A stretch of DNA of 58,055 nt from an uncultured Ruminiclostridium sp. (GTDB lineage Bacteria; Bacillota; Clostridia; Oscillospirales; Ruminococcaceae), in the NCBI GenBank assembly GCA_949878745.1, contig CATLBH010000015.1:1-58055 (forward strand). Direction: 5' to 3'. Below are positions 10,468 to 57,935 of this stretch, in pieces. The notes beneath the pieces were generated by a model. It searched no databases. It saw only the letters and a program-made list of their open reading frames with translations, and was not told the DNA's origin. Position 1 is the first letter of the stretch, and the number at the start of each line of letters is the position of its first letter. The translations under genes were made by a program, and so were the position numbers.

Positions 10468-10509
10468 CGTGTTTGCTGCCGCGGGGAGTAGGAAAATTCT
10501 TTAAAAACG

Positions 10510-15119: not shown

Positions 15120-15145
15120 AATTGATTATAAATGAGGAAAAGCGT

Positions 15146-35069: not shown

Positions 35070-35152
35070 TTTTGTTTTTCTCCTTGTTGAATGTTTGTAA
35101 TTATGACGTCACTGGTTTAACGAGAGCACGCTTGAATTACATAATTCTTTTT

Positions 35153-35385
35153 TCGCTTCCTTTTTGGGATCCAAAAAGGAAGTGGGGTTTCCAAAGGGAC
35201 AAAGTCCCTTTGGTCGCCCTCCGCAGAGGGCGAAACTCTTTACGCTAAAAGCGCTCGGAAAAGGGGAATTCCAAAAACACCACGGTGTGGTGTTTTTGGA
35301 AGGGGGAACCCCTGTAAGAGAGGGCTTCCCCTCTTACGGCGGGCACCCGTTTCCTTTCGGGGTTATCCCCGAAAGGTACGCCCTA
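35153..35385 (+). repeat. Intergenic repeat of the TTCGCTTCC family (copy 2)
   Basis: Begins TTCGCTTCCTTTTTGGGATC, with hairpin partner CAAAAAGGAAG, then GGGTTTCCAAAGGGACAAAG, a CGCCCTCCGCAGAGGGCG stem, CCAAAAACACCAC/GTGGTGTTTTTGG and a tail GGGCTTCCCCTCTTAC...CTTTCGGGGTTATCCCCG. It lies between eda and kdgK. The tail also occurs at 56340-56410, where it is separated from its head by inserted DNA. Confidence 0.7.
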
Positions 35386-35439: not shown

Positions 35440-35605
35440 CTGCTTCTATCTCCGAAGCGGCGGCTTCGCCCGCTTCTTTGCGGGTTTTTACGCGACAAAT
35501 TTACGGATAGTCGATACCGTAAAGCTGCTACGTCGGGGCTTTGCCCCGAACCCCACTTCCTTTTTGCAGTGCAAAAAGGAAGCGAAAAAGACATTGCGGC
35601 TTCGC
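35440..35605. repeat. Partial or rearranged TTCGCTTCC-family sequence
   Basis: CACTTCCTTTTTGCAGTGCA and CAAAAAGGAAGCG form a near-palindrome (35554-35585) resembling the head of the family, preceded by GCTTCGCCCGCTTCTTTGCG and GGGGCTTTGCCCC hairpins. No gene was found in the 570 bp between eda and kdgK. Confidence 0.5.
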
Positions 35606-37594: not shown

Positions 37595-37826
37595 AGAACC
37601 TATCCGCACAGGAACGGTGCGTGGATTTTCGAGCAGATTTTGTCGAGGAGAAGGCAAAATTTCGCCGGCTTGCTGTCGCAAGTCAAGAAATTTTTACACA
37701 CGAGGTGTTCGGTCATTTGCCCAAAGTCGGCGCAAGGACGCGACGACAGCAAAGCAAATGACGAAACGCAGTCATCGGCAAAATCTGCCGAAAAGACGCG
37801 TGCCAATTCCTATGTGGACAGGTTCT
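37595..37826. mobile_element. 232-bp AGAACC-ended inverted-repeat element (long form)
   Basis: The left end AGAACCTATCCGCACAGGAA and the inverted right end (AGAACCTGTCCACATAGGAA on the other strand) continue as inverted copies for about 48 bp, down to CAGATTTTG/CAAAATCTG. The interior has an internal hairpin (GTCATTTGC...GCAAATGAC) missing from the related copy at 46597-46758. There is no gene. It lies between kduD and the AEC carrier and replaces most of that gap. Confidence 0.78.
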
Positions 37827-37848
37827 TAGTTATATTGCGGCAAAACCT

Positions 37849-38841
37849 CTAAAATACCCCGATCGCGCGAAAAATTACCACGTAAACAAAAATAGTGACG
37901 GTGCTCACAAGACTTGTCCACACCACCAGTTGCCCCGCCAGTTCGTCGTCGGCTCCCATTTCCTTGGCCATAATCGCGCTGGCAACGGCTACGGGAGTCC
38001 CGAATACGGCCACGTAGGTGGCAAAGTGCTCACCAAGTAAACCGGGAATAAAGAAGTACGCGGCGGATAAAGCGATAACCGGTACCGCCACGGTACGCAC
38101 GGCGGTGCCGAAAACGATATATTTAAGCTGTCTTTTCACCGCCGAGAACTCGAATTTTCCCCCCAGAACCAGAAGCGCGAAGGGAGTACAGATGGATTTC
38201 AGATTTTCCAGAGTTTTATATAGAAATTCAATATCCTTTAAGCGAAAACTTATTCCGCACTGTACGAAAATTTCACGAATCCCCAATGTCAACAATCCCG
38301 CAACAGTCGCCAATATAAGCGGATTTTTGACAATTCCCAGCAGAATCTTTTTAACGTCGATTTTTCCCTTTTCACCGTTCCCGTTAAATATGCTCAGGGT
38401 TATAACCGACAGAATGTTGAAAAGGGGAACGCAGAAAGCAGACATCACCCCCGCCGCAGCCGCTCCCTTGTCTCCGAAAAGGGCGGAAGCTAAAGGAAGC
38501 CCGATTATTGCGTAATTCGAGCGAAACGCGGACTGAATCAGCGCGCCTCTTTTCGCGTTATCCTTGGTGAACAAACAGTTTATCGCAACGGAAACAAAAA
38601 ATATCGCGATTATCGCCGCTATCCCGTAAAGCACAAAGCCGAAATTTATTTCCTCAAAGCTTCCTATACCGTAAATGTTGTAAAAAAGCAGAGCGGGGAT
38701 GAGCACTCGAAAGGTCAGCTTGTTGCCCGTGTCGAGAAAACTTTTATTCAGCAGCTTTATTCTTTTTAACCCGTAGCCCGCCGCTATCATAAGCACTATG
38801 GGCAGTACCGCGTCGGCGGCGAATACGAAAGCGTCCTTCAT
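37849..38841 (-). CDS. AEC-family (auxin efflux carrier) transporter
   Basis: A 330-residue membrane carrier with about ten hydrophobic segments in two five-helix halves, as in AEC proteins. Typical parts are IVLMIAAGYGLKRIKLL, FRSNYAIIGLPLASALFG and FGTPVAVASAIMAKEMGAD. Bacterial relatives carry malate or other organic acids. It overlaps GH4 by 4 bp (ATGA). Inference: it moves a uronate or an acidic end product. Confidence 0.85.
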   Translation of the reverse strand: MKDAFVFAADAVLPIVLMIAAGYGLKRIKLLNKSFLDTGNKLTFRVLIPALLFYNIYGIGSFEEINFGFVLYGIAAIIAIFFVSVAINCLFTKDNAKRGALIQSAFRSNYAIIGLPLASALFGDKGAAAAGVMSAFCVPLFNILSVITLSIFNGNGEKGKIDVKKILLGIVKNPLILATVAGLLTLGIREIFVQCGISFRLKDIEFLYKTLENLKSICTPFALLVLGGKFEFSAVKRQLKYIVFGTAVRTVAVPVIALSAAYFFIPGLLGEHFATYVAVFGTPVAVASAIMAKEMGADDELAGQLVVWTSLVSTVTIFVYVVIFRAIGVF

Positions 38842-40241
38842 ACTTTCAAAGTCTCCGCGGAATAATAATCCTTAAGGTATTCCTTGGTTTTATCTGTCAT
38901 TCGGTTGAAAAGCTCCCTTCCTTGGGAAAGGGTAAGGCTTGAACACAATGGCTGATTCATAAAGGCCTCGAAAATTTCCTTTACGTTTCTTCGCTTTATG
39001 CCGTAATAGGTGTTTTCGATATTTAAGGCGTTTCGGAGCACTAAACCGTTTACCGCCTCGGGAAGCCTTTTCGCCACAACGGGCTTAACGCTGTCCGAAG
39101 AGAATACGCAGTTTGTTTCCACCACCGACCCTAAAGGCATATCGGGCATTTGACCCGCGTTTATCACATTGGCGTTGGAAACCAAAGGGGGAACCAGCCC
39201 CAGAAGAGCCTTCATCAGCTCCACGACCTCTTCGTCGCTCTTCTTAACCTCTATTTTTTCCTCCCCCGCCGCTATCCTCTTGGACTGCTCTATTTTATCG
39301 ATTCTGTCCTTTTTGCGGAAGGATACTTCGGTAAGGTGATAAAGCCAATCCTTAACGGCTTCTTTATCCTTGATGTACCAGGAATTATTCATAAATTCCA
39401 CAAGATGTCTGTCTCCCGCGGCGGCCAGAACTCCGAAGCGGTTAAACAGATCCATTTTAACCTTATTTCCGTACAAAAACGGATCTCCCCTAAATCCGTC
39501 GGGGGAAACGTCCGCCCGCTCGCAATAGCCCTTTTCGTAAAATTTTTCAATAAATTTCGGGAGCAGCTTAAGCATATCGATCCCGTTATAACTCGCCTCG
39601 GTTATCCACGTGAAATGGTTCACTCCGCAGGCGTCGATAACCATCTCCTTGCGGTTAGGACGGCCTCCCCCCAGTATCTCCTTGGCGGCGCAGCACAAAA
39701 ACTCCTGTGCGTGAAACACCTCATGACAGCAGCCGAAGGCTTTTATTTCGGGGAAAACGTCAAAAAGCGTCTTGGTACAGGCGGTCATCGGATTGGTGAG
39801 GTTTATCACCCACGCCTTCGGACAATGTTCCTTTATTTCGCGGGCAAACCCCTCGTAAATTGGTACCGTCCGCATTGCTCTCAACACTCCGCCGGGGCCT
39901 ACGGTATCCCCCACAGATTGATAGATTCCGTATTCCTTGGGAAGATGCACGTCCCCTTCCATTTCCTCAAAGGTTCCCGGCAAAATGGAACAGGCCACGA
40001 AATCGGCTCCGTCGAGCGCTTCCCCTATTTCCGTATAAACCTTGTAATCCCACCTTGAAAGGGTGTTTTCGCTTTCGTTTATTCTCCCGCCGATTTTTTT
40101 GTTCAGCTCCGCGGCGGGTATATCTATATCGTAAAGGGCTATCTCGCCGCAAAGTCCCTCGGCTAAGGCCAAATCGGTCATAAATACTCTTGCCCACGCC
40201 TTTGAGCCGCCGCCTATGTATGCTATCTTTATATTTATCAT
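38838..40241 (-). CDS. GH4 glycosidase, probably alpha-galacturonidase
   Basis: A 467-residue NAD- and Mn-dependent hydrolase of family GH4. The Rossmann start is KIAYIGGGSKAW, with INLTNPMTACTKTLF, the motif CHEV in KAFGCCHEVFHAQEF and the metal-binding CGVNHFTWI. The CHEV-type motif and the pectin setting point to alpha-galacturonidase (as in Bacillus LplD) instead of alpha-glucosidase or alpha-galactosidase. It would free galacturonate from oligogalacturonides in the cytoplasm. It starts directly after GH105 and overlaps AEC by 4 bp. Confidence 0.88.
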   Translation of the reverse strand: MINIKIAYIGGGSKAWARVFMTDLALAEGLCGEIALYDIDIPAAELNKKIGGRINESENTLSRWDYKVYTEIGEALDGADFVACSILPGTFEEMEGDVHLPKEYGIYQSVGDTVGPGGVLRAMRTVPIYEGFAREIKEHCPKAWVINLTNPMTACTKTLFDVFPEIKAFGCCHEVFHAQEFLCCAAKEILGGGRPNRKEMVIDACGVNHFTWITEASYNGIDMLKLLPKFIEKFYEKGYCERADVSPDGFRGDPFLYGNKVKMDLFNRFGVLAAAGDRHLVEFMNNSWYIKDKEAVKDWLYHLTEVSFRKKDRIDKIEQSKRIAAGEEKIEVKKSDEEVVELMKALLGLVPPLVSNANVINAGQMPDMPLGSVVETNCVFSSDSVKPVVAKRLPEAVNGLVLRNALNIENTYYGIKRRNVKEIFEAFMNQPLCSSLTLSQGRELFNRMTDKTKEYLKDYYSAETLKV

Positions 40242-41369
40242 TTAGCTTATCCTTTTCACTTCGGTGTAACACAGCAGGAAGGGCGCCACGCCCTTTGCGT
40301 CGTTTTCCACAATAGGCTCGGAAATATAATATTCATAGCTTCCGTCCCGTCTTCTGTTGTCCTCGGGGCCCAAACCCGCCACAAGACAGATTCCCCCCAG
40401 ATTCAAATCGCCCTCTTCGCTTACGGTGAGGTATTTTTGACAAATTCCGTCGAAGGTTTTCCTTCCGAAATCCGCGTATTTTTTATCGATAACCCCTAAG
40501 CGTGCGCCTTTCATCATGGCGTAGGCTATCATACTGCTGCCGCTGGTTTCAAGGTAATTTCCTTCCCTTTCGCCTTGGTCGATAACCTGATAAAACATTC
40601 CCGTTTCCTTATCGGCGTATTTGGAAACGCCCTCTGTGGTTTCGGAAAAGATTGTTTTAAGCTCCGCTTTGGCCTTTTCGTCGTCCAGATAATCGATATT
40701 GTCTATAAGGGAAACGCAAAACCACCCCATAGCCCTTAGCCAGAAATTTTTGGAGCAGCCTGTGTTTTTGTCCGCCCAAAAAGCCGTCCTTGAACAGTCC
40801 ATTCCGTGATAAAAAAGCTTTTTATCGGGATCGTACATATATTTAAGCACGTTTTTGTACTGGCTTACCGTATCGGAATAATCCTTACCGCCGAATTCCT
40901 TTTGAAATCTTACATAAAACACCTGAGCCATATAAAGCCCGTCCAGCCAGATCTGGTTGGGATAAATCTGCTTATGCCAGAAGTTGCCCGTATCGGTTCG
41001 GGGTTGGTTTTTCAATTGCTCCCGCAAAAGGAAAATCGCCTTTTTATACTTCTCCTTGCCTGTTTTTTCGTACAGATCAAATAAAACCCTTCCCTCGTTG
41101 ATATCGTCTAAGTTATATTTGTCCATCGAGTACCCCAAAATAGAGCCGTCCTCTTTAACATAGTAATCTATGAATTTTTCGGCAAAGTCAAAGTATTTTT
41201 TCTCCCCCGTAATCTCTCCCGCGCAGAGAAGGGCGGTCATCATACAGCCGTCAATATAATTCCAATGGGGCTTTTTACCCCCTCTTATGCTTTCGATATT
41301 CCACAAAGGCGCTTCGGGAGTAGAATTGTTCAGAAGCCTTTCGATATAATTTTCTATACGTTCGTACAT
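40242..41369 (-). CDS. GH105 unsaturated rhamnogalacturonyl/galacturonyl hydrolase
   Basis: A 375-residue (alpha/alpha)6-barrel enzyme of the YteR/YesR type that removes the 4,5-unsaturated uronic residue left by pectin lyases. Visible are HWNYIDGCMMTALL, INEGRVLFDLY, QIWLDGLYMAQVFYVRF and FWLRAMGWFCVSLI, with the two conserved aspartates in YIDG and WLDG. No signal peptide, so it acts in the cytoplasm. The ATG at 41369 is preferred to the GTG at 41378 because of the AAAGG spacing. Confidence 0.93.
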   Translation of the reverse strand: MYERIENYIERLLNNSTPEAPLWNIESIRGGKKPHWNYIDGCMMTALLCAGEITGEKKYFDFAEKFIDYYVKEDGSILGYSMDKYNLDDINEGRVLFDLYEKTGKEKYKKAIFLLREQLKNQPRTDTGNFWHKQIYPNQIWLDGLYMAQVFYVRFQKEFGGKDYSDTVSQYKNVLKYMYDPDKKLFYHGMDCSRTAFWADKNTGCSKNFWLRAMGWFCVSLIDNIDYLDDEKAKAELKTIFSETTEGVSKYADKETGMFYQVIDQGEREGNYLETSGSSMIAYAMMKGARLGVIDKKYADFGRKTFDGICQKYLTVSEEGDLNLGGICLVAGLGPEDNRRRDGSYEYYISEPIVENDAKGVAPFLLCYTEVKRIS

Positions 41370-41396
41370 CGTTTTCACCTTTCAGGTTAATTTATC

Positions 41397-42290: not shown

Positions 42291-43835
42291 TCAAACTTCC
42301 TTCACCAGCGTATCCACATGGCTTACAATAAGATTGGCGCCTTCGTTTCCGCTTATGTCTATGTTTCTGACGGTAAGAGTTTTTACGTTGTCGAAATACA
42401 TTCCCGCTTTGCACATTTTTTCCGCGTTGTTTCTCATAGCGGGAACACCGGGCTGTGCGTTTTCGTCGTAGGTGAATTTTATATTCTCCACCGTTATTTC
42501 TTCGATGGGCATTTCGGGAAGTCCGTCGCAATAACAGGCGGCAACCTGACAGTTCAGGCATTCCATATCCTTAAATGTGAATTTTCCCAAATAGGGAGTG
42601 CGTTCGTCCACCGTCAGTTTTTCGCGGGTAGTGTTATATTCGGAATAACGGTCGGAATCGCAGCAGTTATACCACATATTTATAACTATGGGAGTGAGCA
42701 CGCCGTCCATTTTGATATTTTCAAAAAGCACGCCGTCTATTACCGCGTCTTTTCCTCTTCCTCGGCGTGTCTTTATACGCAGCCCTCTGTCGGTATGATT
42801 GAAGATACAGCGGTTAACGGTGAGATTTTTTACGCCGCCCGCCATCTCGCTGCCCAAAGTTATTGCGCCGTGTCCGAACTGCATAATGCAGTTTCTGATG
42901 GTATGATGATCGGCGGGGGTTTTGTATTTTTTGCCTATTTCGATTTTGCCTGATTTAATAGCAATACAGTCGTCGCCTACGCTGAATTTGCAGCCGATTA
43001 TGTTAACGTTGTCGCAGGCTTCCGGGTCAAGAGCGTCCGTATTGGGACTGTCTTTGGGAGCGTTTACGGATACGTCCAAGAAATTGAGATTATGGGAAAA
43101 ATAAGGGTGAAGCTGCCATGAAGCGGCGTTTTGTACGGTAACTCCGTGGAGTGTGATGTTTTCACAGCGATTGGCAAACAAAATTCTCGGTCTTCCCGTT
43201 TCCCTTTCTTTTACATTTATCCACCATTCGCTGTTATGTGCGTTGCCCTCTATGACGCCTTTTCCCACTATTTGTATGTCCTCGGCGTATTCGGCAAACA
43301 GCAGCGCCTGATGCATGGGAATGGAGACTCCCTCCCATGTGCCCGTTTCCACCAGCTTGCCGGTAACAATATCGTTTACGGCTCCCGGAATCACAGGGTA
43401 ACGGTCGGGGTCGGTATTGCCCAATAAAACGGCTTCCTCGGAAAGATCTATGATTATATGGCTTTTAAGGCAGAGGGGAGCGGTGCTGTAAACGCCTTTG
43501 GGAAAATGAAGGCGGCCGCCTTTGGGGAGACAGTTTATGGCGGTTTGAATATTTATCGTATCATCGTGAACCCCGTCGCCCACCGCTCCGAAATCTTTTA
43601 CGTTTACGGCGCAGGTTTCTTTATGGGTAGTGAATGTTACTATGCCGTGGCCGGTTGCTTCGAGAGTATATTCGGTATCGGGGGTGAGATTGAAGAGTGA
43701 AAAGACGTTTGTTTTTGAGGTAAATAAGTCTTTTCCGTTCAGGGTTACCTTGTACTCGGAATCGGAATAATAGGGGGAGTTGTTTTCCAGCTCAAAACAG
43801 GCGGATACGGGGCTTTTATATAGGATATTCAACAT
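42291..43835 (-). CDS. GH28 polygalacturonase, cytoplasmic
   Basis: A 514-residue enzyme, intracellular because it has no signal peptide. Residues 1-75 resemble a small fibronectin-type domain (SPVSACFELENNSPYY...LTPDTEYTLEATG). The right-handed beta-helix begins at VKDFGAVGDGVHDDT. GH28 catalytic motifs: NTD (265-267), DD (288-289), GHG (321-323) and RIK (353-355). Like bacterial exo-polygalacturonases, it likely trims imported oligogalacturonides. The ATG at 43835 is used: GGAAAGG precedes it, and the 15 upstream codons (from 43880) are not family-like. Confidence 0.93.
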   Translation of the reverse strand: MLNILYKSPVSACFELENNSPYYSDSEYKVTLNGKDLFTSKTNVFSLFNLTPDTEYTLEATGHGIVTFTTHKETCAVNVKDFGAVGDGVHDDTINIQTAINCLPKGGRLHFPKGVYSTAPLCLKSHIIIDLSEEAVLLGNTDPDRYPVIPGAVNDIVTGKLVETGTWEGVSIPMHQALLFAEYAEDIQIVGKGVIEGNAHNSEWWINVKERETGRPRILFANRCENITLHGVTVQNAASWQLHPYFSHNLNFLDVSVNAPKDSPNTDALDPEACDNVNIIGCKFSVGDDCIAIKSGKIEIGKKYKTPADHHTIRNCIMQFGHGAITLGSEMAGGVKNLTVNRCIFNHTDRGLRIKTRRGRGKDAVIDGVLFENIKMDGVLTPIVINMWYNCCDSDRYSEYNTTREKLTVDERTPYLGKFTFKDMECLNCQVAACYCDGLPEMPIEEITVENIKFTYDENAQPGVPAMRNNAEKMCKAGMYFDNVKTLTVRNIDISGNEGANLIVSHVDTLVKEV

Positions 43836-43903: not shown

Positions 43904-44008
43904 ATACCAATCTTTAATCAGGTTGTAGACTTGATGAAAGATTGCACCCTAAGCACTAATTTTTGATCATCCGTATTATTTGTCTATACCCTAATCAAAG
44001 ATTAGTAT
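43904..44008. repeat. Full-length two-hairpin palindromic repeat (CTAATCTTT family)
   Basis: ATACCAATCTTTAATCA, TGTAGAC, GATGAAAGATTGCACCC, CACTAATTTTTGATCA, then TTTGTCTATA and CTAATCAAAGATTAGTAT, colinear with 591-704 but more diverged. It lies between GH28 and the four-TM gene upstream of it. No gene was seen in this 240-bp gap. Confidence 0.7.
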
Positions 44009-44076: not shown

Positions 44077-44757
44077 TTATTTTTTTCCGTTTCCCGCTTT
44101 CACGTTCGCGTCTTTAAGCACCTTGATAAACCCGTTCTTTATCACGATAAAAAGCATATCGAACCCCATATACAAAAGTCCGAACAAAATCGGCTCCACC
44201 CCTATCGGCACCGTTTCCGCGCTGTCCGCAGGCCCGGCGAGTATCGTGTTCACTACCGTGTAAAACTGCATAACGCAAAACAGTATCACCGCCGAATAAA
44301 GCACGTTCAGAAAAACCGTCCAGAACTTTTTTGAGGGTATCATCATCCACTTGTCATAAGCCCCCTTTTCGGGTTCAAAATGCCTGAGCGTATGATTTAC
44401 CAGTAAATCGTTGCATACCCCCAAGCCGATGGCTAAAGCCGCCAGCAGGTCGAGTCCGACAAGGTAAGCGCCTAAACCCCAGAGGAAAAAGTAACAAATC
44501 GCTCCGCTGAACCAGAATTTTATAAAAACAATCTTCAGCCATGAGGGAATGTGTATTCCTTTCCTCGACTTGTATTTTCTTATCTCCGCATTCGATACGG
44601 GCGGTGCGTTTTTGGCGTTCACCAGCTTTTCAATCGACTCGGTTTTCAGATCGTAATAGCTTGCTGTGCCAGCCGCGCTAGCTGTGCCAACTGTGCTAGC
44701 TGTGCTCGGCTGTTTTTCGGGCTTTCCGCCCTTCCGTTCTTTTTGTTTATTCGACAT
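44077..44757 (-). CDS. Four-TM membrane protein of unknown function, with low-complexity N-terminus
   Basis: A 226-residue protein from the ATG at 44757. The hydrophilic N-terminus contains a Ser/Thr/Ala/Gly stretch (STASTVGTASAAGTAS) encoded by short DNA repeats. Four membrane segments follow in residues about 75-215 (VFIKFWFSGAICYFFLWGLGAYLVG, LLAALAIGLGVCNDLL, WTVFLNVLYSAVILFCVMQFY, EPILFGLLYMGFDMLFIVI). No family was recognised. It is the last gene of the importer unit before GH28. Confidence 0.7.
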   Translation of the reverse strand: MSNKQKERKGGKPEKQPSTASTVGTASAAGTASYYDLKTESIEKLVNAKNAPPVSNAEIRKYKSRKGIHIPSWLKIVFIKFWFSGAICYFFLWGLGAYLVGLDLLAALAIGLGVCNDLLVNHTLRHFEPEKGAYDKWMMIPSKKFWTVFLNVLYSAVILFCVMQFYTVVNTILAGPADSAETVPIGVEPILFGLLYMGFDMLFIVIKNGFIKVLKDANVKAGNGKK

Positions 44758-44843
44758 ATATTCATATATTCCCTTTTTGCAATTAAAGCAACACAAGTCT
44801 TAAGCTAACCTTCAGACCGATGCTGCTTTTCATTGGTTATTTG

Positions 44844-45419
44844 TTATTCTTCGCCCGAAATTTCAATGGCTTTCATCTCGCCGTTGCCTTCAACGTCAAT
44901 AGAAGTATTGATCTTTTTAAGAAGCTTTCCGTACAACGGTAACAGAAGTACCAGTACAGCGCATACCGCAACGCATACAATGTGCGCGGTCACCGTATTC
45001 TGAGCCGAAAGTATGAAAGCGGTGGAGTCGTCGATTACAACAGGGCTTACCTCGCGGGTCATAGCCTGTGATATTCTGAAAAGGTAAACGCTGTCCACGA
45101 ACACCAAGCCCGCCAGCATGACGTAAAGCAATATCAGCATCACAAGCTTGGGTTTCTGCCTTTTCGGGAACGCGCGAAGAAAACAGACAAAGGCAAGTAT
45201 CGAAAACAGCATTGCCGCAAACTCACACTGTCCCATATTGGGCGAATTTATCCTCGCCGTGGTATTCGCTATGGAAGTAAGATTCAGCGAATATACAAGA
45301 AACGCCGCCGCCAAAGCCACAAGAGCGATAATCTGGGGACTCCGTTTCAGGGAAACGAAAAGTTTTCTTATAAATTCCTTTATCCCTCTCGGCTTAGCGG
45401 ACATCTGCTTTTGTTTCAT
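44844..45419 (-). CDS. Four-TM membrane protein of unknown function
   Basis: A 191-residue protein with a basic N-terminus and four membrane segments (about 30-50, 66-84, 91-113, 143-165); about 30 residues lie outside between the third and fourth. Similar in size and layout to the proteins at 46758-47264 and 47261-47851 in the same operon, though sequence identity is low. It begins 14 bp after the ATPase gene. Confidence 0.72.
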   Translation of the reverse strand: MKQKQMSAKPRGIKEFIRKLFVSLKRSPQIIALVALAAAFLVYSLNLTSIANTTARINSPNMGQCEFAAMLFSILAFVCFLRAFPKRQKPKLVMLILLYVMLAGLVFVDSVYLFRISQAMTREVSPVVIDDSTAFILSAQNTVTAHIVCVAVCAVLVLLLPLYGKLLKKINTSIDVEGNGEMKAIEISGEE

Positions 45420-45433
45420 CTGCCTTTTCTCCT

Positions 45434-46498
45434 TTATCCTATTCTTATTGCCTCGGTGGTGTCCTTGTCAAAGAAATGTTTTCTGCTGAAAGAAACCATA
45501 ACCTCGTCTCCTGCCTTGTAGTTGCACCATTCACGGAATTTGCAGGTTATCTTGTGTTTTTTCATAGTGCCGTTCACAAGAGTGGTCTGTCCGAGGTTTT
45601 CGTTGGAAAATACGTTTACGCGAATGCTTCCCCCCTCCGAAATATTTTCGGGACGTACCCCGAGAGTGATATGCTTATTCTCATATCCCCTCAGCGCGCT
45701 TTTTTCCTCGGGAGAAAGCTCTTCCGCAAAGTCGTCGCAAACCAGCTGGCCGTTCTTTACCTCAACGTCAAAGAAATTCATGGGGGGAAGTCCTATAAAT
45801 CCCGCCACAAACAGGTTCGCGGGAGAGTCGTAGAGCTCCAGCGGCGTTCCTATCTGTTGAACGTGCCCCATGGACATACATACTATCCTGTCCGCAAGCG
45901 TCAATGCTTCCGTCTGATCGTGGGTAACGTAAAGCATAGTTGCGTTAAGCCGCTTGTGAAGAAGAAGTATCTCGCGTCGTGTGGCTCCTCTGAGCTTCGC
46001 GTCAAGGTTGGACAGGGGCTCGTCAAAAAGGAACACCTTAGGGGTGCGCACTATGGCGCGTCCCATGGCGACTCTTTGCCTCTGACCGCCCGAAAGCTGA
46101 TTGGGCTTTTTGTTAAGCTGGTCGGTAAGACCCAATATATCCGCCGCCGCCAGAACCTTCTGGTGTATCTCGTTTTTGTTTTCCTTTCGGAGCATAAGCG
46201 AAAACGCCATATTCTCATATATGGTCATATGACCGTACAGCGCGTAATTCTGAAACACCATCGCTATGTCCCGATCCTTCGGGGGCATTGCCGTAACATC
46301 CTTGCCGTCGATTATGAGCTTCCCGCCGGAAATGTCCTCAAGCCCGGCCACCATGCGAAGCGTGGTGGATTTGCCGCAGCCCGAAGGCCCCACGAGAACT
46401 ATCAGTTCGCCGTCGTTTACGTCAAGGTTAAAATCGAAAACCGCCTGAACCTTATTGTCGTATATTTTGTCAAGATGTTGTAATTTCAAACTGCTCAT
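45434..46498 (-). CDS. Sugar ABC transporter ATPase (MsmX/UgpC type) of the importer operon
   Basis: A 354-residue CUT1 ATPase. Walker A GPSGCGKST, signature LSGGQRQRVAMGRAI, Walker B VFLFDEPLSNLDAKLR, switch YVTHDQTEALTLADR, and a C-terminal TOBE-like regulatory domain (about 240-354). It lies with permeases and the binding protein in the same orientation and probably drives them. Having its own ATPase in the operon is unusual for LplB/LplC-type importers, which commonly rely on a shared MsmX. Confidence 0.94.
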   Translation of the reverse strand: MSSLKLQHLDKIYDNKVQAVFDFNLDVNDGELIVLVGPSGCGKSTTLRMVAGLEDISGGKLIIDGKDVTAMPPKDRDIAMVFQNYALYGHMTIYENMAFSLMLRKENKNEIHQKVLAAADILGLTDQLNKKPNQLSGGQRQRVAMGRAIVRTPKVFLFDEPLSNLDAKLRGATRREILLLHKRLNATMLYVTHDQTEALTLADRIVCMSMGHVQQIGTPLELYDSPANLFVAGFIGLPPMNFFDVEVKNGQLVCDDFAEELSPEEKSALRGYENKHITLGVRPENISEGGSIRVNVFSNENLGQTTLVNGTMKKHKITCKFREWCNYKAGDEVMVSFSRKHFFDKDTTEAIRIG

Positions 46499-46757
46499 CT
46501 TATAATCAATTCCTTTCGGCGGAGACTTTCCGCGCGGCCGCGCGGGATACGAGCCAACAAGCTTACGGCCCGATTCGCTCCGGTTGTTTAGAAATTAGAG
46601 CCCGTCCGCACAGGAATGGCGCGTGGATTTTCGAGCAGATTTTGCCGAGGACAAGGCAAAATTTCGCAGGCTTGCTGGCGCAAGTCAAGAAATTTTAACG
46701 CGGTCATCGGTAAAATCTGCCGAAAAGACGCGTGCCGATTTCTATGCGGAGCGGTTC
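46499..46757. other. Gap between ATPase and four-TM genes: palindrome plus mobile element
   Basis: No gene. CCGCGCGGCCGCGCGG, a perfect 16-bp palindrome, is at 46530-46545; the rest is the AGAACC element described separately. Confidence 0.6.
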
Positions 46758-46758
46758 T
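46597..46758. mobile_element. 162-bp AGAACC-ended inverted-repeat element (short form)
   Basis: Starts AGAGCCCGTCCGCACAGGAA and ends GACGCGTGCCGATTTCTATG plus CGGAGCGGTTCT, the same ends and flanking blocks (GTGGATTTTCGAGCAGATTT, CAAGTCAAGAAATTTT, GTCATCGG) as the 232-bp copy at 37595, minus an 80-bp internal part. Its outer end is adjacent to TTA that serves as the stop codon of the minus-strand gene starting at 47264. Confidence 0.78.
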
Positions 46759-47264
46759 TATTGCTGCGCGGATACGTTCTTTGCCTCAAGCTCGTTCTGA
46801 TAAGCCGAAAGCGTACGGGTTTTATAAAAGGCGATAATTCCCGCCGCTATACAAAGCGCTGCGGAGCCGATAAGATAAACGCATATTCGCGTAAACTGTC
46901 CGCTCCCCATAACCGCCTCTTCTTCGCCGCTTAAGGTAACGGTAGCCTTGGTGGCGTCCATAGGAAGGATAAAGATGCGTATTATCTGCCCCAATCCCAG
47001 AAGCACAAGAACGAAGGAATAATTCAGCTTATAGCTTTTTACCCCCTCGGATGAGAGAAACGCGATAAGCATAAACAAAAGATTATATACAACGGAGATC
47101 CCTATCATATACTGATAATAATAAGAGCCTACGTCGGATTTATAGATACAGACAAAGTAAAGCGCGTTGAGAACTATCGCTAACAGGGTAAGAGAGGACG
47201 AAAGCTTGTTTTTGGTGAAACGGAGCCTATCCTTTTTTATAAGAGCGTCGTTTTTGGCGGTCAT
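46758..47264 (-). CDS. Four-TM membrane protein of unknown function
   Basis: A 168-residue protein with four membrane segments (about 23-41, 50-70, 82-99, 126-147) and short charged ends. It overlaps the upstream four-TM gene by 4 bp. Its TAA stop is supplied by the end of the AGAACC element at 46597-46758, so the present C-terminus may be a truncation of an originally longer protein. No family recognised. Confidence 0.72.
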   Translation of the reverse strand: MTAKNDALIKKDRLRFTKNKLSSSLTLLAIVLNALYFVCIYKSDVGSYYYQYMIGISVVYNLLFMLIAFLSSEGVKSYKLNYSFVLVLLGLGQIIRIFILPMDATKATVTLSGEEEAVMGSGQFTRICVYLIGSAALCIAAGIIAFYKTRTLSAYQNELEAKNVSAQQ

Positions 47265-47851
47265 ACTTTCATCTCCTTTCCCGTACCGATAAGACGTTTT
47301 TCTTCCTTCATCATAATTATTTTCAGAACCAAATTGATAATAAGCAGCACCGTAATCAGAAGAAGAAGCCCGAATACAAAATACGACACGTCAAACCAGA
47401 AGGTGGAATCCGTATAATAGGTTTTCCACAGTTCCGAGTGCGCCTTAAGAGCCTCAAAGTCTATCTGTAAGTACTGCGCTTTATAAGCCGATATTTCGGA
47501 AAGCGCCCATACCGACACTCCGATATTGCACACCGCCGAAAGCCCCACCGCGATATAATTGCCTATGTAGTACTTTCTGCGGGAATGGGTGTTTGTCAGG
47601 AATAAAATCAGCGTAACGAGAATAAGCCCTATGGATATTTGGGTAAATGTTGAGTTAAAGGGCTGCATTTCGTAATAGATCGACGAGCCCGCCACGGTCG
47701 ATTCGGTATAATCGTCGGGGTTTCTCATGGTAGAGTACAGGCTGTCGTACAAATCGGTCATTATGCCGAGCGAGTATATAAATACCAGAGCCGCCGCGGC
47801 CAACGCGGCAAAGCATACTATTTTCTGAAATGTTAATTGTTTCTTATACAT
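47261..47851 (-). CDS. Four-TM membrane protein of unknown function
   Basis: A 196-residue protein with four membrane segments (about 10-31, 70-86, 96-115, 150-176). A 40-residue hydrophilic loop follows TM1 and another TM3. Layout parallels that of 44844-45419. It lies between the solute-binding gene and the ATPase gene and is translationally coupled to the next. Inference: an accessory part of the importer. Confidence 0.72.
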   Translation of the reverse strand: MYKKQLTFQKIVCFAALAAAALVFIYSLGIMTDLYDSLYSTMRNPDDYTESTVAGSSIYYEMQPFNSTFTQISIGLILVTLILFLTNTHSRRKYYIGNYIAVGLSAVCNIGVSVWALSEISAYKAQYLQIDFEALKAHSELWKTYYTDSTFWFDVSYFVFGLLLLITVLLIINLVLKIIMMKEEKRLIGTGKEMKV

Positions 47852-48167: not shown

Positions 48168-50396
48168 TCAGCCGTTCATCTCGTTGTAATAGTTTACAAG
48201 TCTCTGCCAAGCGTCCTGCTTGAGAGCAAGATACTGTGCGCCGCTCCATGCGTCGCTTACTGTGGTGATGGTTTCCTCGGCGGAAGATGTGCCCTCGCCG
48301 GTGTAGCCGCCGCAGATGATGTTAACGAAGAGGTTCTCGCCGTCCTTGTTCTGGCCGAACTTACCCTTGGCGCCCAGCTCGGTGAAGGTGCCGATCATAT
48401 CGTTTTCGGTCTTGGTGTTGGGCAGTACGGTGGGAACGGAGGTGTACCACGCGTTTTCGGTAAGCGCCAGCTCGGGGTGCTTGATGGTGCCCAGGCCGAT
48501 GGCGGTGGAGATATAGCCCGCGCCTTCTCTGCCGGCCTCGGAGGTGCACTGATACTCAAACGCCTGGCTCTTTACAAAGCTGAGAGTGGAGCCCAAATAC
48601 TTACGGGCATAGTTAGTGTAGTTGCCGCTTGCCTTCTCCCAGAGCTCGTCATAAGTGGCCTGAGCGATCATAGGCATATCGGTGCCGTTGAACTTGAAGG
48701 TCATATAGTTGCCGTCGGCGTCGGTCATAATGAACGCGTCGGGGCCGTAAGACATAAGAATCTGTCCCTCGGGGCTGTAAGCGTAGTCGATAAGGGAAAG
48801 AGCCGCGTTAAGCTTGTTGGTGTCGTCGCCCACGCCCGCCTTGGAAATTCCCCAGCCGTCCGTCTTAACAGAACGCCAGGATTCGGTAAATCTCATATAA
48901 ACGCCGTCGTCGCTTGAGCCGTCGAACCAATGGGCAACGGGAACCATAGCCGCCATGTACTTCTCGCCGTCTTCTTTCTGAAGCTTGGTCTCGTTAAGTA
49001 CGGTCTGGGTCTGGTTATAGTCATAGTGCATAAAGCCCATATCATTTTCCAACATTGTGGAGGAGCTTTCCTTGGAGCTGTCGATGAAGGACTTGGAGAT
49101 AAGGCCTTCCTGAGCCATAGCGTTCATTCTGTCCATGGCGGCGTAGGCTTCGGGCTCCTGACGCGCGTCATGAAGCTTGTTGTCGGTGCCTACATAAAGG
49201 TAATCGGATCTGGACTCAAGGCCGCGAACGCCGAAGAGAGAACCGGCGAAACGGAACATATCAACTCTTCTCTGATTGTTGTCGTCTTCACGGGAGAAAA
49301 GACCCTGAATGCTGTCTGTGCCGTTAAGAGTCTGAGGGTTAGCCACTACGCAGCGAAGGAGAGCTACCAGCTCGTCGGCGTCCCAGGCGGCGTTCTGACC
49401 AACGAACAGGTTGGAACGGGTGGTTCCGTAATATCCGTTGTAAGCCTCGTCAATGTATGTACGGAGCATATTAACCGCGTCAACACCGCTAATAGCGCCC
49501 GCGTCGTTCATCTTGGCGATAATGTTTCCGCCCGTGTCGTAATCCTTTGTAACGGTTTCGGTACCGGAGCCGTCAAGCTTTACCGTTTCAATTTCAACCT
49601 TGCCGCTGGTGGGCATATAAGGCTGATATACGGGAGCGGCGGTGGTGTTGCTGGCGTCGGCCGCGAAAGCGCCGTCGCCGTCAAGCAGCTTGGCAACCCA
49701 GTCCACTCTCATAAGAGGCATACGCTCTATATCGTTTACACCGTCGAAGTAAGGGGAGAAGTAAATTGCGCCCTTGGTATCGCCGGAGGTGGAGCCGGTA
49801 ATGGAGAGGCGAACGATGGGATTCTGTTCAAGATAAGCCTTGAAGTTGGGCATACTGTCCAGATATTCCCCGATGTTTACCAGAGCGCCCGCCGTACCGT
49901 TTTCGGTAAGCAGAGAGGCCGTGCCGCTGACCATATCCACCTGATCCAACTGAGCCTTCCAGTACTCGAACTCCTTGGTGGAGTTGTTGCCCTGATACTT
50001 ATCCTCGATGGTGATGTTCAGTCTGTTCTGAACCTCTACCCATGTGGGCTTAAGGTCGCCTGTGTGATAGGTGTTGCCGTCCGCCAGCTGAATGCCTTCG
50101 CCGGCTACTTCCGCGTCAAAGCTGAGACCGGTTTCCTTGCTGTTGTAGCCGGTGGCCATGCGCAGAACGGTTCCCGCGTCATACGCCAAAGCGGAAGCGG
50201 GGGTGTTGTTTTCCGCGGTGGTGGTATCCTCTCCGCCGGAATTGCCTTCCGCGGCGGTTGTAGTGGCTGCCGCAGGTGTTGTGCCAGATGTTGTGGTTGC
50301 GTTTTCATTATTGCCGCTGGGGCCGCACGCGGTAAGAAGCGTGGCGGCCGCCACGGAGACGGCGATCAGTGAAGACGCTATTCTTGTCTTTCTCAT
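48168..50396 (-). CDS. Large extracellular solute-binding lipoprotein (LplA-like) for pectic oligosaccharides
   Basis: A 742-residue binding protein from the ATG at 50396 (AAAGGAGGAAG ahead), with lipobox LTAC (Cys24) and a Ser/Thr/Ala linker (about 32-65). Its size exceeds typical 430-500-residue family-1 proteins and fits the LplA/YtcQ-like group that accompanies LplB/LplC permeases. Visible features: LKPTWVEVQNRLNITIED (N-lobe), DYAYSPEGQILMSYGPD (C-lobe). It is followed by hairpins and four-TM genes. Inferred ligand: oligogalacturonides, from context. Confidence 0.88.
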   Translation of the reverse strand: MRKTRIASSLIAVSVAAATLLTACGPSGNNENATTTSGTTPAAATTTAAEGNSGGEDTTTAENNTPASALAYDAGTVLRMATGYNSKETGLSFDAEVAGEGIQLADGNTYHTGDLKPTWVEVQNRLNITIEDKYQGNNSTKEFEYWKAQLDQVDMVSGTASLLTENGTAGALVNIGEYLDSMPNFKAYLEQNPIVRLSITGSTSGDTKGAIYFSPYFDGVNDIERMPLMRVDWVAKLLDGDGAFAADASNTTAAPVYQPYMPTSGKVEIETVKLDGSGTETVTKDYDTGGNIIAKMNDAGAISGVDAVNMLRTYIDEAYNGYYGTTRSNLFVGQNAAWDADELVALLRCVVANPQTLNGTDSIQGLFSREDDNNQRRVDMFRFAGSLFGVRGLESRSDYLYVGTDNKLHDARQEPEAYAAMDRMNAMAQEGLISKSFIDSSKESSSTMLENDMGFMHYDYNQTQTVLNETKLQKEDGEKYMAAMVPVAHWFDGSSDDGVYMRFTESWRSVKTDGWGISKAGVGDDTNKLNAALSLIDYAYSPEGQILMSYGPDAFIMTDADGNYMTFKFNGTDMPMIAQATYDELWEKASGNYTNYARKYLGSTLSFVKSQAFEYQCTSEAGREGAGYISTAIGLGTIKHPELALTENAWYTSVPTVLPNTKTENDMIGTFTELGAKGKFGQNKDGENLFVNIICGGYTGEGTSSAEETITTVSDAWSGAQYLALKQDAWQRLVNYYNEMNG

Positions 50397-50659: not shown

Positions 50660-51550
50660 TTATTCCTTAACGCCGCCTACGTTTACGCCCTTGGCGAAGT
50701 ACTTCTGAATAAAGGGGTAGATAATCAGAATGGGAACGATGGAGCACACTATAAGCGCGTAGATTACGGAATCCGAAGCGTAAGCCTCGTTCCAGGCGGC
50801 CATCTGTTCGGGATCGGTATACTGCTCCAGCTTAAGCCTTATAAACACCTGAAGCGGGTGCTCGTTTGAGTTGGAGATCATTTGTCTCGCCCAGAAATAT
50901 CCGTTCCAGCGGGAGATTCCGAAGAACAAAGCCACCGTGGCGATTATCGATTTGCTCATAGGTATGTATACGCGCCAAAGCACCTGCATTTCCGTGGCTC
51001 CGTCAACTATCGCCGCTTCTTCTATCTCGGAGGGAACCCCCTCGAAGGAGTTTCGGAGCAGTATAATGTTCATGGCCGCCATACCCATGGCGATAACCAC
51101 AAGCCACTTGTCGTCCATAATGCCCACAGCGTTGAACACGCGCTTCGTGTCCAGATAGTTCAGATACTGGGGCACAAGTCCCGCGCTGAACCACATGGTG
51201 AATACCAAAAAGAAGTTAAAGCCCTTGCGGAACAAAAGACGCTTTTTCGAAAGAGCGTATGCTCCGAAAATAGAGGTGAACAAAGCCCAGATCGTTCCGT
51301 AAAAGGTTATAAACAGGGTGTTGGTATAAGCGTTCCAGAACATATTGTCGTTAAACATTTTAGAGAACGCGTCAAACTGAATATCCTTGGGGAATAAGAT
51401 CAGATCGTTGTACTCCACCGCGTGCCTTCCGCTTATGGAAGCGGAAATCGCGTAAAGGAAGGGATACAGGCAGCAGACCGCGAATATTGTAAGCAGCGTA
51501 TAGCTTATAATCTTAAATATAAGCTCGGAAATTTCCAGTTTTCTTTTCAT
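50660..51550 (-). CDS. Carbohydrate ABC permease (LplC/YtcP type)
   Basis: A 296-residue permease with six membrane segments. The EAA loop that docks the ATPase is EIEEAAIVDGATEMQVLWRVYIPMSKSI. It opens with ISYTLLTIFAVCCLYPFLYAISASISG and ends KYFAKGVNVGGVKE, both characteristic of the LplC group. Lies 25 bp after the partner permease. Confidence 0.94.
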   Translation of the reverse strand: MKRKLEISELIFKIISYTLLTIFAVCCLYPFLYAISASISGRHAVEYNDLILFPKDIQFDAFSKMFNDNMFWNAYTNTLFITFYGTIWALFTSIFGAYALSKKRLLFRKGFNFFLVFTMWFSAGLVPQYLNYLDTKRVFNAVGIMDDKWLVVIAMGMAAMNIILLRNSFEGVPSEIEEAAIVDGATEMQVLWRVYIPMSKSIIATVALFFGISRWNGYFWARQMISNSNEHPLQVFIRLKLEQYTDPEQMAAWNEAYASDSVIYALIVCSIVPILIIYPFIQKYFAKGVNVGGVKE

Positions 51551-51575: not shown

Positions 51576-52628
51576 TTAATACAGCGACACGTCGGACGCC
51601 TTGCGCGATATCGTGTTCGCGCCGATTACCAACAGCATTCCTATAACGTTGTTCATCATTTCCGCGGCGGAGGCGAGACCTTTCATCGTTCCCGTGATAC
51701 CGTACCGGTTGGCGAAGGTGGAAACAACGTCGGCGGTAACGTATGTATTGGGGTTATAGAGAAGCAGAACCTTTTCATAGCCGATATTGAGCAGAGAACC
51801 GATTCTGGTTATCAGCATTATTACAATGGTGGACAGTATACAGGGCAAAACCACGTATCTCATCTGAGACATCTTTCCGGCTCCGTCTATCTGCGCCGCC
51901 TCATAGCTGGTGGGTGAGATTGCGATTATCGCCGCGAAAAATACGATACTGTCATAGCCCGCGCCCTCCCAGATTCCGCTTATCTGATAAATCGCCCTGA
52001 AAAAGTTCGGATCGTTCATAAGACCCGCATAGGCGGTGTCTCCGCTTATTAACCCCAGCTGAACCAGAAGCTGGGAAAGTATGCCCGTGCCGGAGGTTAA
52101 AGACCCCTGCTTAACCAGCATCATTACAAGAGAGGTCATAACTACCGTGGACATAAATTTGGGCAGATAGGTCATTACCTGATAAGTGCTGCGGAGAATG
52201 TTGGAACGAATTTCGTTGAAAAACAGCGCGATAATGATAGGCATGGGGAAACCGAAGCAAAGTCCGTAGAAGCTGAGCAGAAAAGTGTTTCTAAAAGCCC
52301 TCCAGAATTCGGTGGTAAGCGTTCCGGCACCTACCAGCAGCTGCTTAAAATAGGAAAAGCCGGAAAAGAATTGCTCCGCCACAGGCTTTACCTCGTCGGT
52401 GACCTTAAAGCAGCCCAACAGCTCGTACATGGGGAAGTAGCGCCACAAGAGGAAAACCAAAAGCATTGGCACAAGCATTAGGTAAAGCCGCCAGTCTTTC
52501 AGCACCGTCTTAAGAACGTTCAGCCAGTGATGCTTTTCAACATCGTCGCGTACAACCTGTTCCGGATTCTCGATGTAAGTTCCGCTTTCTTCATCGAAAA
52601 TCAGATAATCGGTAGCGTTCAGTTGCAT
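51576..52628 (-). CDS. Carbohydrate ABC permease (LplB/YteP type)
   Basis: A 350-residue permease with a 45-residue cytoplasmic start and six membrane segments (LYLMLVPMLLVFLLWRYFPMYELLGCFK first). The EAA loop is YEAAQIDGAGKMSQMRYVVLPC. The ATG at 52628 has AGGAGG seven bases upstream. It pairs with the next permease to form the channel of the importer. Confidence 0.94.
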   Translation of the reverse strand: MQLNATDYLIFDEESGTYIENPEQVVRDDVEKHHWLNVLKTVLKDWRLYLMLVPMLLVFLLWRYFPMYELLGCFKVTDEVKPVAEQFFSGFSYFKQLLVGAGTLTTEFWRAFRNTFLLSFYGLCFGFPMPIIIALFFNEIRSNILRSTYQVMTYLPKFMSTVVMTSLVMMLVKQGSLTSGTGILSQLLVQLGLISGDTAYAGLMNDPNFFRAIYQISGIWEGAGYDSIVFFAAIIAISPTSYEAAQIDGAGKMSQMRYVVLPCILSTIVIMLITRIGSLLNIGYEKVLLLYNPNTYVTADVVSTFANRYGITGTMKGLASAAEMMNNVIGMLLVIGANTISRKASDVSLY

Positions 52629-52722
52629 CTTTAAATCCTCCTGAAATAATATTTTCATATTTTATCGCTTAAATTCAACATCAGCCGCGTTTTTTAACTC
52701 TTAAATCTTAGATCGTAAGTCT

Positions 52723-53316
52723 TCACTGACCGTAAAAATCCTCTGCCTCTTTTTTTCTTCTCGCCTTGTCCATACGAATAAGATAGCTTTTCTGATCCTC
52801 GAAAAGTCCGTCCGCTTTGCGGGAAATAAGCACTATCACCACCGAAAACAAAAGCGAAAGCGTATCCGTGGCGAAAAACATTATAATCGAATCCGCCGCG
52901 CCCCCGCACAGCGTCGCCACAAGCCATCTTCCGATCTGTGCTCCCATATAGGCGGCAAATACAAATAACAGGGTAAAATAAAATTTATCCTTTATTTTGT
53001 TTTTTCCCGGATATTTAAACAAGAAAAGAGCCAAAAGCGCGAAACAGTTTCCCAATACGTAAATCAGCGTCTGTTTTCCGGTGGCTCCCGAGGCGAGAGA
53101 AAACGCCATTCCGCTGAGAACCGCGTTTATCGCCGCGAACCCGCCCCAGCGCATCATAACTATACACATCATAGCTATTGTGGGAGAAACCGCGTAAAGC
53201 TCACCCGGAAACCATTTTGTGGCGGCGAAGGCCGTTATCGCCTCAAACACCGCGGTGACCAACGCTAACATCGTAAGGTCGATGGCTCTGTACTGATTAA
53301 AGGAAATATTTTTCAT
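52723..53316 (-). CDS. Membrane protein resembling ECF S-components
   Basis: A 197-residue protein with about five to six hydrophobic segments and a charged C-terminus (LIRMDKARRKKEAEDFYGQ). The first helix (LTMLALVTAVFEAITAFAATKWF) with small residues at helix-packing spacing, and the overall size, resemble S-components of ECF importers. It is the first gene of the minus-strand importer operon. Substrate unknown; the S-component reading is tentative. The ATG at 53316 is preferred to the TTG at 53322. Confidence 0.6.
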   Translation of the reverse strand: MKNISFNQYRAIDLTMLALVTAVFEAITAFAATKWFPGELYAVSPTIAMMCIVMMRWGGFAAINAVLSGMAFSLASGATGKQTLIYVLGNCFALLALFLFKYPGKNKIKDKFYFTLLFVFAAYMGAQIGRWLVATLCGGAADSIIMFFATDTLSLLFSVVIVLISRKADGLFEDQKSYLIRMDKARRKKEAEDFYGQ

Positions 53317-53713: not shown

Positions 53714-54631
53714 ATGGAAAATATTCACGTTTCCCCCGGGGACAAACTGTCGGAGGTGCTGAAATATGCTTCCGAAAACACGCGAATAGTGCTTGAAAAA
53801 GGCGTTTACAGGGAAAAACTCGAAATACGCGTTTCCGATGTGGAAATTGTTGGCGCGGGAAAAGACGCTACCGTTATAATATACGATGACTACGCCAAAA
53901 AAACCGACGAAAAAGGAAAGGAATACAACACCTTCCGCACATATACCGCCGCCGTACTGGCCGACAACGTCACTTTCAAGGAGCTGACGGTGGAAAACGA
54001 CGCCCGTTTGCCCGAAATAAAAGGACAGGAGGTGGCTCTCACCGTCTGCGGAGATAATTTCAAGGCCGTAAACTGCGGCTTTGTGTCCACCCAGGACACG
54101 GTTTTCTGCGGGCCCCTCCCTCCCGATCTTATAGAAAGATACGAGGGCTTTCTAAAGGACGAGCTGCGCCGCGGCGGCGCAATGAAACAGGTGTTTGAAA
54201 ACTGTTTTATCGCGGGAACGGTGGATTTCATCTTCGGCTGCGGCGACGTCTTGTTTGACCGTTGCGAAATAAAGTCGATTCACGACGAAAGAGGGCACGG
54301 ATACGCCGCCGCCCCCGCCCACTCTCTGTCTCAGGAAACGGGATTCGTATTCAACGGCTGCCGCTTTACCCACGGGGACGGGGTAAAGGATAAATCAATA
54401 TACTTGGCTCGCCCTTGGCGGGATTACGGAAAAGCGAGCTTTATCGGCTGCGAATACGGAAGCCATATTGCCCCCGAGGGCTTCGACAAGTGGAACGACA
54501 CCGAGAGGGACAAAACCGCCCGTTTTTCCGAATACGGAACCGACCCTTCCATAAGGGCGGAACGGGTAAAATGGAGCCCTTCTCTTTCGGAGGAAGACAA
54601 AGACCGCCTGCTCAAAAATTTTAAAAAATAA
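53714..54631 (+). CDS. Pectinesterase (CE8), cytoplasmic
   Basis: A 305-residue pectin methylesterase, a beta-helix enzyme removing methyl groups from galacturonan. Catalytic parts are STQDTVF (Gln127, Asp128), GTVDFIFG (Asp171, nucleophile) and YLARPWRDYGKASFIGC (Arg). No signal peptide: it acts on imported oligosaccharides. AAAGGAAAGG precedes the ATG. It is divergent from the importer operon and is followed by the AraC regulator. Confidence 0.94.
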   Translation: MENIHVSPGDKLSEVLKYASENTRIVLEKGVYREKLEIRVSDVEIVGAGKDATVIIYDDYAKKTDEKGKEYNTFRTYTAAVLADNVTFKELTVENDARLPEIKGQEVALTVCGDNFKAVNCGFVSTQDTVFCGPLPPDLIERYEGFLKDELRRGGAMKQVFENCFIAGTVDFIFGCGDVLFDRCEIKSIHDERGHGYAAAPAHSLSQETGFVFNGCRFTHGDGVKDKSIYLARPWRDYGKASFIGCEYGSHIAPEGFDKWNDTERDKTARFSEYGTDPSIRAERVKWSPSLSEEDKDRLLKNFKK

Positions 54632-54771
54632 ACCGTCTTTTAATTTTGATACACAGTATAGCACATTGCTTATATTTTTACAACAGCAGTTAATAACTTT
54701 TGTTAATTTTTAATAAATTTATTTTTTGTGTTAGGGCAATATACCGTTTATGTAATTTTGAAAGAGGTAAA

Positions 54772-55560
54772 ATGAACAACATAGTTTATATCGGCAAAAA
54801 CCTGATCACCTTTTCCATGCACCGCCATTCTCACGAAAGCTGGGAGCTGGTTTACTGTACGGGAGGGAGCGGACAGTTCGCCTTCGACGATTCCACTATG
54901 AAATACAATTCGGGTGATATCGTGATAATTCCCCCGGGAGCTTCCCATATGAACAACAGCGACGAGGGCTTTACCAATATACATATCAATATTAAAGACG
55001 CAACCTTCCCCTTCCGAAACCCAATAGTCGTTTCCGACGACAGCGACAACCACATTCTGACGGCCTTCAACGACGCTTTTTACTATTTTAACAGCAAGAT
55101 ACACAATCATCAGCTGATAATCGAAGCCTTCGGAAATCTTATAGTAAACTACGTCATCGCCTTTCAGAGCACCAAGCCCCTAGGAGACGTGGTTGGAGCC
55201 ATTAAGAGCAATATTATGCAAAACTGCACCGACTGCGATTACGAGCTGGACAAGTACTTACAAACCATACCCTTCAGCTACGATTATCTGAGAAAGCTTT
55301 TCAAAAGCGAGGTGGGAATGACTCCCCACAATTATCTGGTCAGCCTTCGTATGCAGATGGCGGAAAAGCTTCTTTGCTCCGTGGGGGATATAGAGCAGAA
55401 TGTGTCGCAGATCGCATACGTCTGCGGATTCGCGGAGCCGCTTTATTTTTCGAGGGTTTTTAAGAAAAATTTCGGTTGTTCCCCGAAGCACTACGCGGAA
55501 AAAATGAAGGAAAAGGAAAAAACGGTACCGAAAAATTTTTCGGATTCCGAAAAGGAGTGA
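54772..55560 (+). CDS. AraC-family transcriptional regulator with cupin sensor
   Basis: A 262-residue activator. An N-terminal cupin (1-about 85; FSMHRHSHESWELVYCTGGSGQF, SGDIVIIPPGASHMN) binds the inducer. Two C-terminal helix-turn-helix motifs (about 160-258) include YLRKLFKSEVGMTPHNYLVSLRMQMAEKLL and SQIAYVCGFAEPLYFSRVFKKNFGCSPKHY. The ATG at 54772 with AGAGG ahead is preferred to one at 54700. Likely controls the surrounding pectin genes in response to a uronate, by analogy and position. Confidence 0.92.
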   Translation: MNNIVYIGKNLITFSMHRHSHESWELVYCTGGSGQFAFDDSTMKYNSGDIVIIPPGASHMNNSDEGFTNIHINIKDATFPFRNPIVVSDDSDNHILTAFNDAFYYFNSKIHNHQLIIEAFGNLIVNYVIAFQSTKPLGDVVGAIKSNIMQNCTDCDYELDKYLQTIPFSYDYLRKLFKSEVGMTPHNYLVSLRMQMAEKLLCSVGDIEQNVSQIAYVCGFAEPLYFSRVFKKNFGCSPKHYAEKMKEKEKTVPKNFSDSEKE

Positions 55561-55890: not shown

Positions 55891-55914
55891 AAGAAAGCGT
55901 AAAACGAAATTTTT

Positions 55915-56075
55915 TTCGCTTCCTTTTTGGGATACAAAAAGGAAGTAGGGTTTCCAAAGAGACAAAGTCCGCTTGGTCGCTGCCCGTAGGCAGCGAAACT
56001 CCCCATGCTTAGCGGCGCTCGGAAATGGGTGAATTTCAAAACGCCCCGGCGGGGCGTTTTGGAAGAGTGGAAGCC
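55915..56075 (+). repeat. Intergenic repeat of the TTCGCTTCC family (copy 3, head)
   Basis: TTCGCTTCCTTTTTGGGATA, AAAAGGAAGTAGGGTTTCCA, AAGAGACAAAGTCCGCTTGG, a GCTGCCCGTAGGCAGC stem and CAAAACGCCCCGGCGGGGCG TTTTGG. It matches copy 2 (35153) block by block, but the tail of the family appears only later, at 56340-56410. Confidence 0.72.
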
Positions 56076-56339
56076 ATGCAATAGCAATATCATTAACTTA
56101 AGCTATAAAGCCTCTATTTATGCGGGTTTATAAGAATTTTCTAATACTAATCTTTGGTCAACATTTTTTGTCTATAATCTGACTAAAGATTAGTATAAAA
56201 ATTATTGAGAAAAAAGATGTGGTTTTACACGAATTTCAACCAAATATTACCCTTAAAAATTTTTTCTTGAAGTTTTCCAAAGTGAGTAAACCTAAATTTT
56301 TGGATTAATACCGTCATTTTTTAAGTTAATGACATTGCG
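56076..56339. other. AT-rich insert inside the third TTCGCTTCC-family copy
   Basis: No gene. It contains the 53-bp palindromic repeat at 56144-56196 and separates the head (55915-56075) from the tail (56340-56410) of the family, which are contiguous at 35153-35385. Confidence 0.45.
56144..56196. repeat. One-hairpin palindromic repeat (CTAATCTTT family)
   Basis: ATACTAATCTTTGGTCAACA to CTGACTAAAGATTAGTAT, almost identical to the second half of 591-704 (655-704). Confidence 0.85.
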
Positions 56340-57917: not shown

Positions 57918-57935
57918 GTATAAAAAGAATGTTTT

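Follow-up and report, generated by a model that had tools for sequence, protein, structure and literature searches.

The window analysed here, a stretch of 58,055 nucleotides (nt) of contig CATLBH010000015.1 from an uncultured Ruminiclostridium sp., contains a ten-gene cassette found in some gut Clostridia, in which the genes of a probable pectin-fragment importer stand together with genes for five small membrane proteins without recognised family (A to E; Table 1). A preliminary description of the locus had pointed out A to D as proteins of 168-226 residues (aa) with four transmembrane (TM) segments and no known family, and all of this holds; in the window, no Pfam or NCBIfam cut-off is reached by any of the four. 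Its count falls short by one, since gene E at the head of the cassette was overlooked. As it had noted, the four genes are interleaved with those of the importer, in the order solute-binding protein (SBP), D, C, ATPase, B, A.

A profile scan of genome contigs with C yielded 284 relatives, and the analysis uses the best 80 loci of these 284, so that C is present in every locus by selection. Their sources are labelled as Clostridia-type organisms (one as Bacteroides sp.) and are mostly metagenome assemblies; many isolate names point to rumen or gut, and Ruminococcus albus 8 (locus L057) is among the carriers. Each gene is present in all loci whose contig extends over its expected position: E in 65/65 loci, LplB in 65/65, LplC in 69/69, the SBP in 76/76, D in 79/79, the ATPase in 78/78, B in 75/75 and A in 70/70. 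E, LplB, LplC, D, C, ATPase, B and A occur all together in 60 loci, and this order fits directly in 78 of the 80. The two exceptions are L103, where D and C are fused into one frame of 367 aa (9386-10489), and L100, where the sole deviation is an early beginning of the LplB open frame, the aligned part of which starts after E. The gene directly after A is GH28 in 52 of the 68 loci that reach far enough. Translational coupling, proposed earlier for several of the small genes, is clear for D and C, whose 4-nt overlap in the window recurs in 41/80 loci (start codons picked by a nearest-start rule); it is not clear for B, which begins 14 nt past the ATPase, or for A, 86 nt past B. The gaps SBP-D, C-ATPase and A-GH28 measure 241-316 nt. 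The C-ATPase gap holds one copy of a dispersed repeat of about 160-230 nt (37595-37828 and 46597-46760; aligned blocks 89-90% identical).

Table 1 Cassette genes and neighbouring features in the window
Feature	Position	Strand	Remarks
Gene E	52723..53316	-	197 aa, six TM; predicted S-component fold of the energy-coupling factor (ECF) type; first cassette gene, directly upstream of LplB
LplB-type permease, AlgM1 relative	51576..52658	-	AlgM1 E-value 2.8e-65; start may be ATG at 52628
LplC-type permease, AlgM2 relative	50660..51550	-	AlgM2 E-value 1.6e-78
SBP	48168..50396	-	742 aa, lipoprotein-like, distant AlgQ1/AlgQ2 relative
Gene D	47261..47851	-	196 aa, four TM, two outer loops of ~40 aa
Gene C	46758..47264	-	168 aa, four TM; start overlaps D stop by 4 nt
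UgpC/MsmX-type ATPase	45434..46498	-	NF008653, 452 bits vs cut-off 432
Gene B	44844..45419	-	191 aa, four TM
Gene A	44077..44757	-	226 aa, four TM, cytosolic N-terminus of ~70 aa
GH28 polygalacturonase-type enzyme	42291..43835	-	no signal peptide seen
GH88/GH105-type unsaturated uronyl hydrolase	40242..41378	-	no signal peptide seen
GH4-type glycosidase	38838..40241	-	NCBIfam alpha-galactosidase model, below cut-off
Pectin methylesterase	53714..54631	+	no signal peptide seen; divergent from cassette
AraC-type regulator	54700..55560	+	

To guard against the bias of selection by C, each of the four genes A-D was also sought across the order, in 147 genomes; five had A and B and four had C and D, all within the same five genomes. 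G108 and G136, of the same genus, have none of A-D, and G332, from another family, has all the genes, at great distance.

Linkage to LplB/LplC importers in other genomes, as the preliminary description had anticipated, is thus borne out by the 80 loci, where A-D take the same places beside the same importer; it extends to one LplB/LplC clade only and not to LplB/LplC importers generally. In class-level samples of 341 genomes, searched each for C, for B and for an LplB-like permease, such a permease occurs at an E-value of 1e-20 or better in at least 154. Among the matches listed, four genomes have a permease at least 57% identical to the window LplB (E-value 4e-121 or better) and the others reach at most 46% (best E-value 1e-71). 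These four are exactly the genomes with C and with strong B matches in the samples of the same size. Sporadic occurrence away from importers, which would have spoken against the link, was not seen apart from two weak B matches and one weak A fragment that we judge to be due to chance. E was found in none of 26 non-cassette LplB loci, stretches that are too short to judge A-D. In the source genome A-E each have a single match, and the three other importer loci there have none of them.

By sequence, the permeases, the ATPase and the AlgQ-like lipoprotein all assign the importer to the AlgM1M2SS/LplBC type of type I ATP-binding cassette (ABC) importers. PF00528 lies above cut-off for both LplB and LplC. 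The SBP profile matches AlgQ1/AlgQ2 at E-values of 2e-8 to 6e-8, over 81-94 residues only; no Pfam family is reached at 0.001 among 45 SBP members, and a lipobox-like start is present in the window protein and in 57/78 members. The cassette LplB carries a conserved cytosolic N-terminal arm of about 45 aa that ends in EQxVRDDxEK. It is present in 69 of 72 members, the other three having lost it to contig ends, and in none of the 26 non-cassette LplB loci. Mean pairwise identity is 0.79-0.82 for LplB, LplC and the ATPase versus 0.46-0.54 for A-E. A second UgpC/MsmX-type ATPase is located in the window at 31103-32203 beside KduI, and in 33/80 loci an ATPase match, its type not checked, lies more than 500 nt beyond A.

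Each of A-D shows four TM segments in an N-in/C-in arrangement, as judged from family-averaged hydropathy and the positive-inside rule on full-length members from the window and the loci examined (74 for A, 81 for B, 83 for C and 83 for D). The common layout that had been suspected for two or three of them therefore applies to topology; homology does not accompany it, as profile-profile comparison with hhalign gives probabilities of 1.5% or less for every pair among A-E. Pfam searches of A-D family members at an E-value of 0.001 return scattered matches only, the most frequent model in 3/80 members. Assignment of D to the EamA transporters was rejected: PF00892 scores 20.3 bits against a cut-off of 28.2, and 1/82 members matches at 0.001 or better. 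The DUF624 proteins (YesL/YteU) are small multi-TM proteins encoded near LplBC carbohydrate importers. A-E resemble them as small multi-TM neighbours of a carbohydrate importer but differ in matching no DUF624 model; PF04854 is absent up to an E-value of 10 for A-D and of 1 for E, and in the member scans. The sole DUF624 match of the source genome is on another contig, beside genes that by eye look like pentose metabolism.

Conserved positions are mildly enriched on the cytosolic side, more clearly so in D. Among the top 30 positions by conservation in each protein, 14 in B, 11 in C and 12 in D are cytosolic, against a cytosolic share of all residues of 37%, 34% and 22%, and all three proteins carry conserved basic cytosolic segments. 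In D, another 14 of the top 30 lie in the outer loops, which account for 77/196 residues (39%).

Folds are predicted for both D and E, and that of E has the six-TM shape of an ECF S-component, the kind of receptor known from vitamin transporters. Conservation within the membrane part of E is concentrated in the outer half, with 13 of the top 14 positions (permutation p 0.0002; helices assigned by hydropathy). In group II S-components an AxxxA motif in TM1 makes the contact with EcfT. The window E has this motif, and the family does not conserve it: AxxxA is strict in 29/67 members, with alanine at position 18 in 32/67 and at position 22 in 33/67. E further differs from ECF S-components in reaching no Pfam S-component family (TrpP matches 1/67 members, at an E-value of 0.07) and in its place within the operon of an SBP-dependent importer.

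The surrounding genes point to pectin as the source of the substrate. Besides the enzymes of Table 1, the window encodes KduI, KduD, 2-keto-3-deoxy-6-phosphogluconate aldolase and tagaturonate reductase. In a simple hydropathy test, signal-peptide-like starts are found in 0/49 methylesterases (aligned relatives in the loci), 0/57 GH88/105 and 0/37 GH4 proteins, and for GH28 in 1/27 or 0/47, depending on the choice of start. This suggests that de-esterification and cleavage probably take place inside the cell and that, judging from gene content, oligogalacturonides are probably imported intact and esterified.

We consider it rather probable that A-E are five accessory membrane subunits of one clade of AlgM1M2SS-type importers for intact, probably methyl-esterified oligogalacturonides. 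The 742-aa lipoprotein would capture the oligomer outside, and the translocator would consist of LplB/LplC and two copies of the cassette ATPase. D may pair with C, to which it is fused in L103. Cytosolic conservation in B, C and D, together with the extra arm of LplB, suggests contacts on the ATPase side, where the basic segments and the arm would lie; conservation of the outer loops of D suggests that these perhaps face the binding protein. E, conserved in its outer half, could be a docking subunit, a scaffold or a receptor that binds a sugar end at the membrane. Once imported, the oligomer would be de-esterified and then degraded in the cytosol. More tentatively, the whole may be a nine-subunit pectin-fragment importer, in which four mutually unrelated four-TM subunits and a receptor of S-component fold have become permanent additions to a type I ABC importer, so that delivery by lipoprotein is combined with delivery by membrane receptor in one machine taking up whole methyl-esterified oligogalacturonides for intracellular use.

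Several observations weigh against the assignment of A-E as subunits. Position in a co-directional operon is also compatible with mere co-regulation. GH28 lies elsewhere in 5/68 loci and is absent from 11/68, and G119 has A and B, with C and D not found there (B is at the contig start). The D-C fusion comes from a single metagenome-assembled locus, the enrichment of conserved positions on the cytosolic side is mild except in D, and AxxxA is not conserved in E. To our knowledge, Sphingomonas AlgM1M2SS and Bacillus subtilis YtcQP-YteP are described without A-E-like proteins, so such proteins would not be needed for the chemistry.

Co-regulation would also underlie an alternative that we regard as unlikely, in which E, as a true or derived S-component, joins some or all of A-D in a transporter or channel distinct from the importer, with a by-product of pectin as its substrate (galacturonate, short dimers, methanol or a cation). 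The predicted fold of E and the ligand-pocket-like concentration of conserved positions in its outer half would fit such a role. In the loci analysed the genes are interleaved with those of the importer rather than placed beside them, however, and LplB has a clade-specific arm; all cassette genes are accounted for and none is EcfT (the rest of the genome was not searched for it), and the lack of AxxxA conservation argues against this alternative too. It seems less likely still that A-D serve in regulation or sensing, as a complex gating the ATPase or signalling transport to the AraC-type regulator, a gene present in 42/80 loci with flanks of varying length. The basic cytosolic segments of B, C and D are consistent with this, but no signalling domain is matched in any of A-E, and D is conserved in its outer loops too. 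Faster evolution of A-E than of the core (46-54% against 79-82% identity) could indicate that A-D help to assemble, fold or anchor the large lipoprotein and the permeases and stay outside the working importer; in our judgement it would be unusual for four unrelated factors to be fixed between the genes of an importer, and we hold this to be quite improbable.

In the usual description, a type I ABC importer comprises a binding protein, two permease domains and two ATPases. The importer of the cassette is of this known kind, and what is new is the five retained membrane proteins; we recognised no description of such a cassette in the open-licence literature searched. It resembles the AlgM1M2SS/AlgQ system of Sphingomonas sp. 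A1 (PDB 4TQU) in that LplB corresponds to AlgM1, LplC to AlgM2 and the SBP to AlgQ1/AlgQ2. It differs in the size of the SBP (~740 aa against 490-516 aa for AlgQ chains), in the LplB arm of ~45 aa and in the additional five membrane proteins. The Sphingomonas system imports an acidic polymer that is degraded in the cytosol (PMC9314435), as is proposed for the cassette. YtcQP-YteP of B. subtilis imports polygalacturonan and rhamnogalacturonan fragments; its energy most probably comes from MsmX, a multitask ATPase that is shared and encoded outside that locus, whereas the cassette has its own ATPase; the available part of that report does not mention A-E-like proteins, and the genome was not searched for them (PMC5730181). 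In a survey of the ABC systems of B. subtilis at the structural level, LplCBA and YtcP/YteP are modelled as MsmX with two permeases and a binding protein (PMC11466899). If A-E are indeed subunits, they would represent a new class of importer subunit and a link between two importer types usually kept apart, and would suggest how Gram-positive gut bacteria import whole esterified pectin fragments without sharing the products.

The window also contains repeated sequences outside the cassette genes. A near-palindromic 54-nt element resembling a miniature inverted-repeat transposable element is found at 651-704, 43955-44008, 56143-56196 and 57935-57988, in both orientations and with copies up to 98% identical. 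A family of elements bearing inverted repeats with a CTTCCTTTTTGG-type core occurs, again in both orientations, at 15038-15124, 35143-35238, 35549-35596 and 55911-56001. Two neighbouring open reading frames and the sequence preceding them form a tandem duplication (18754-19746 and 20022-21080) with blocks 77-86% identical.
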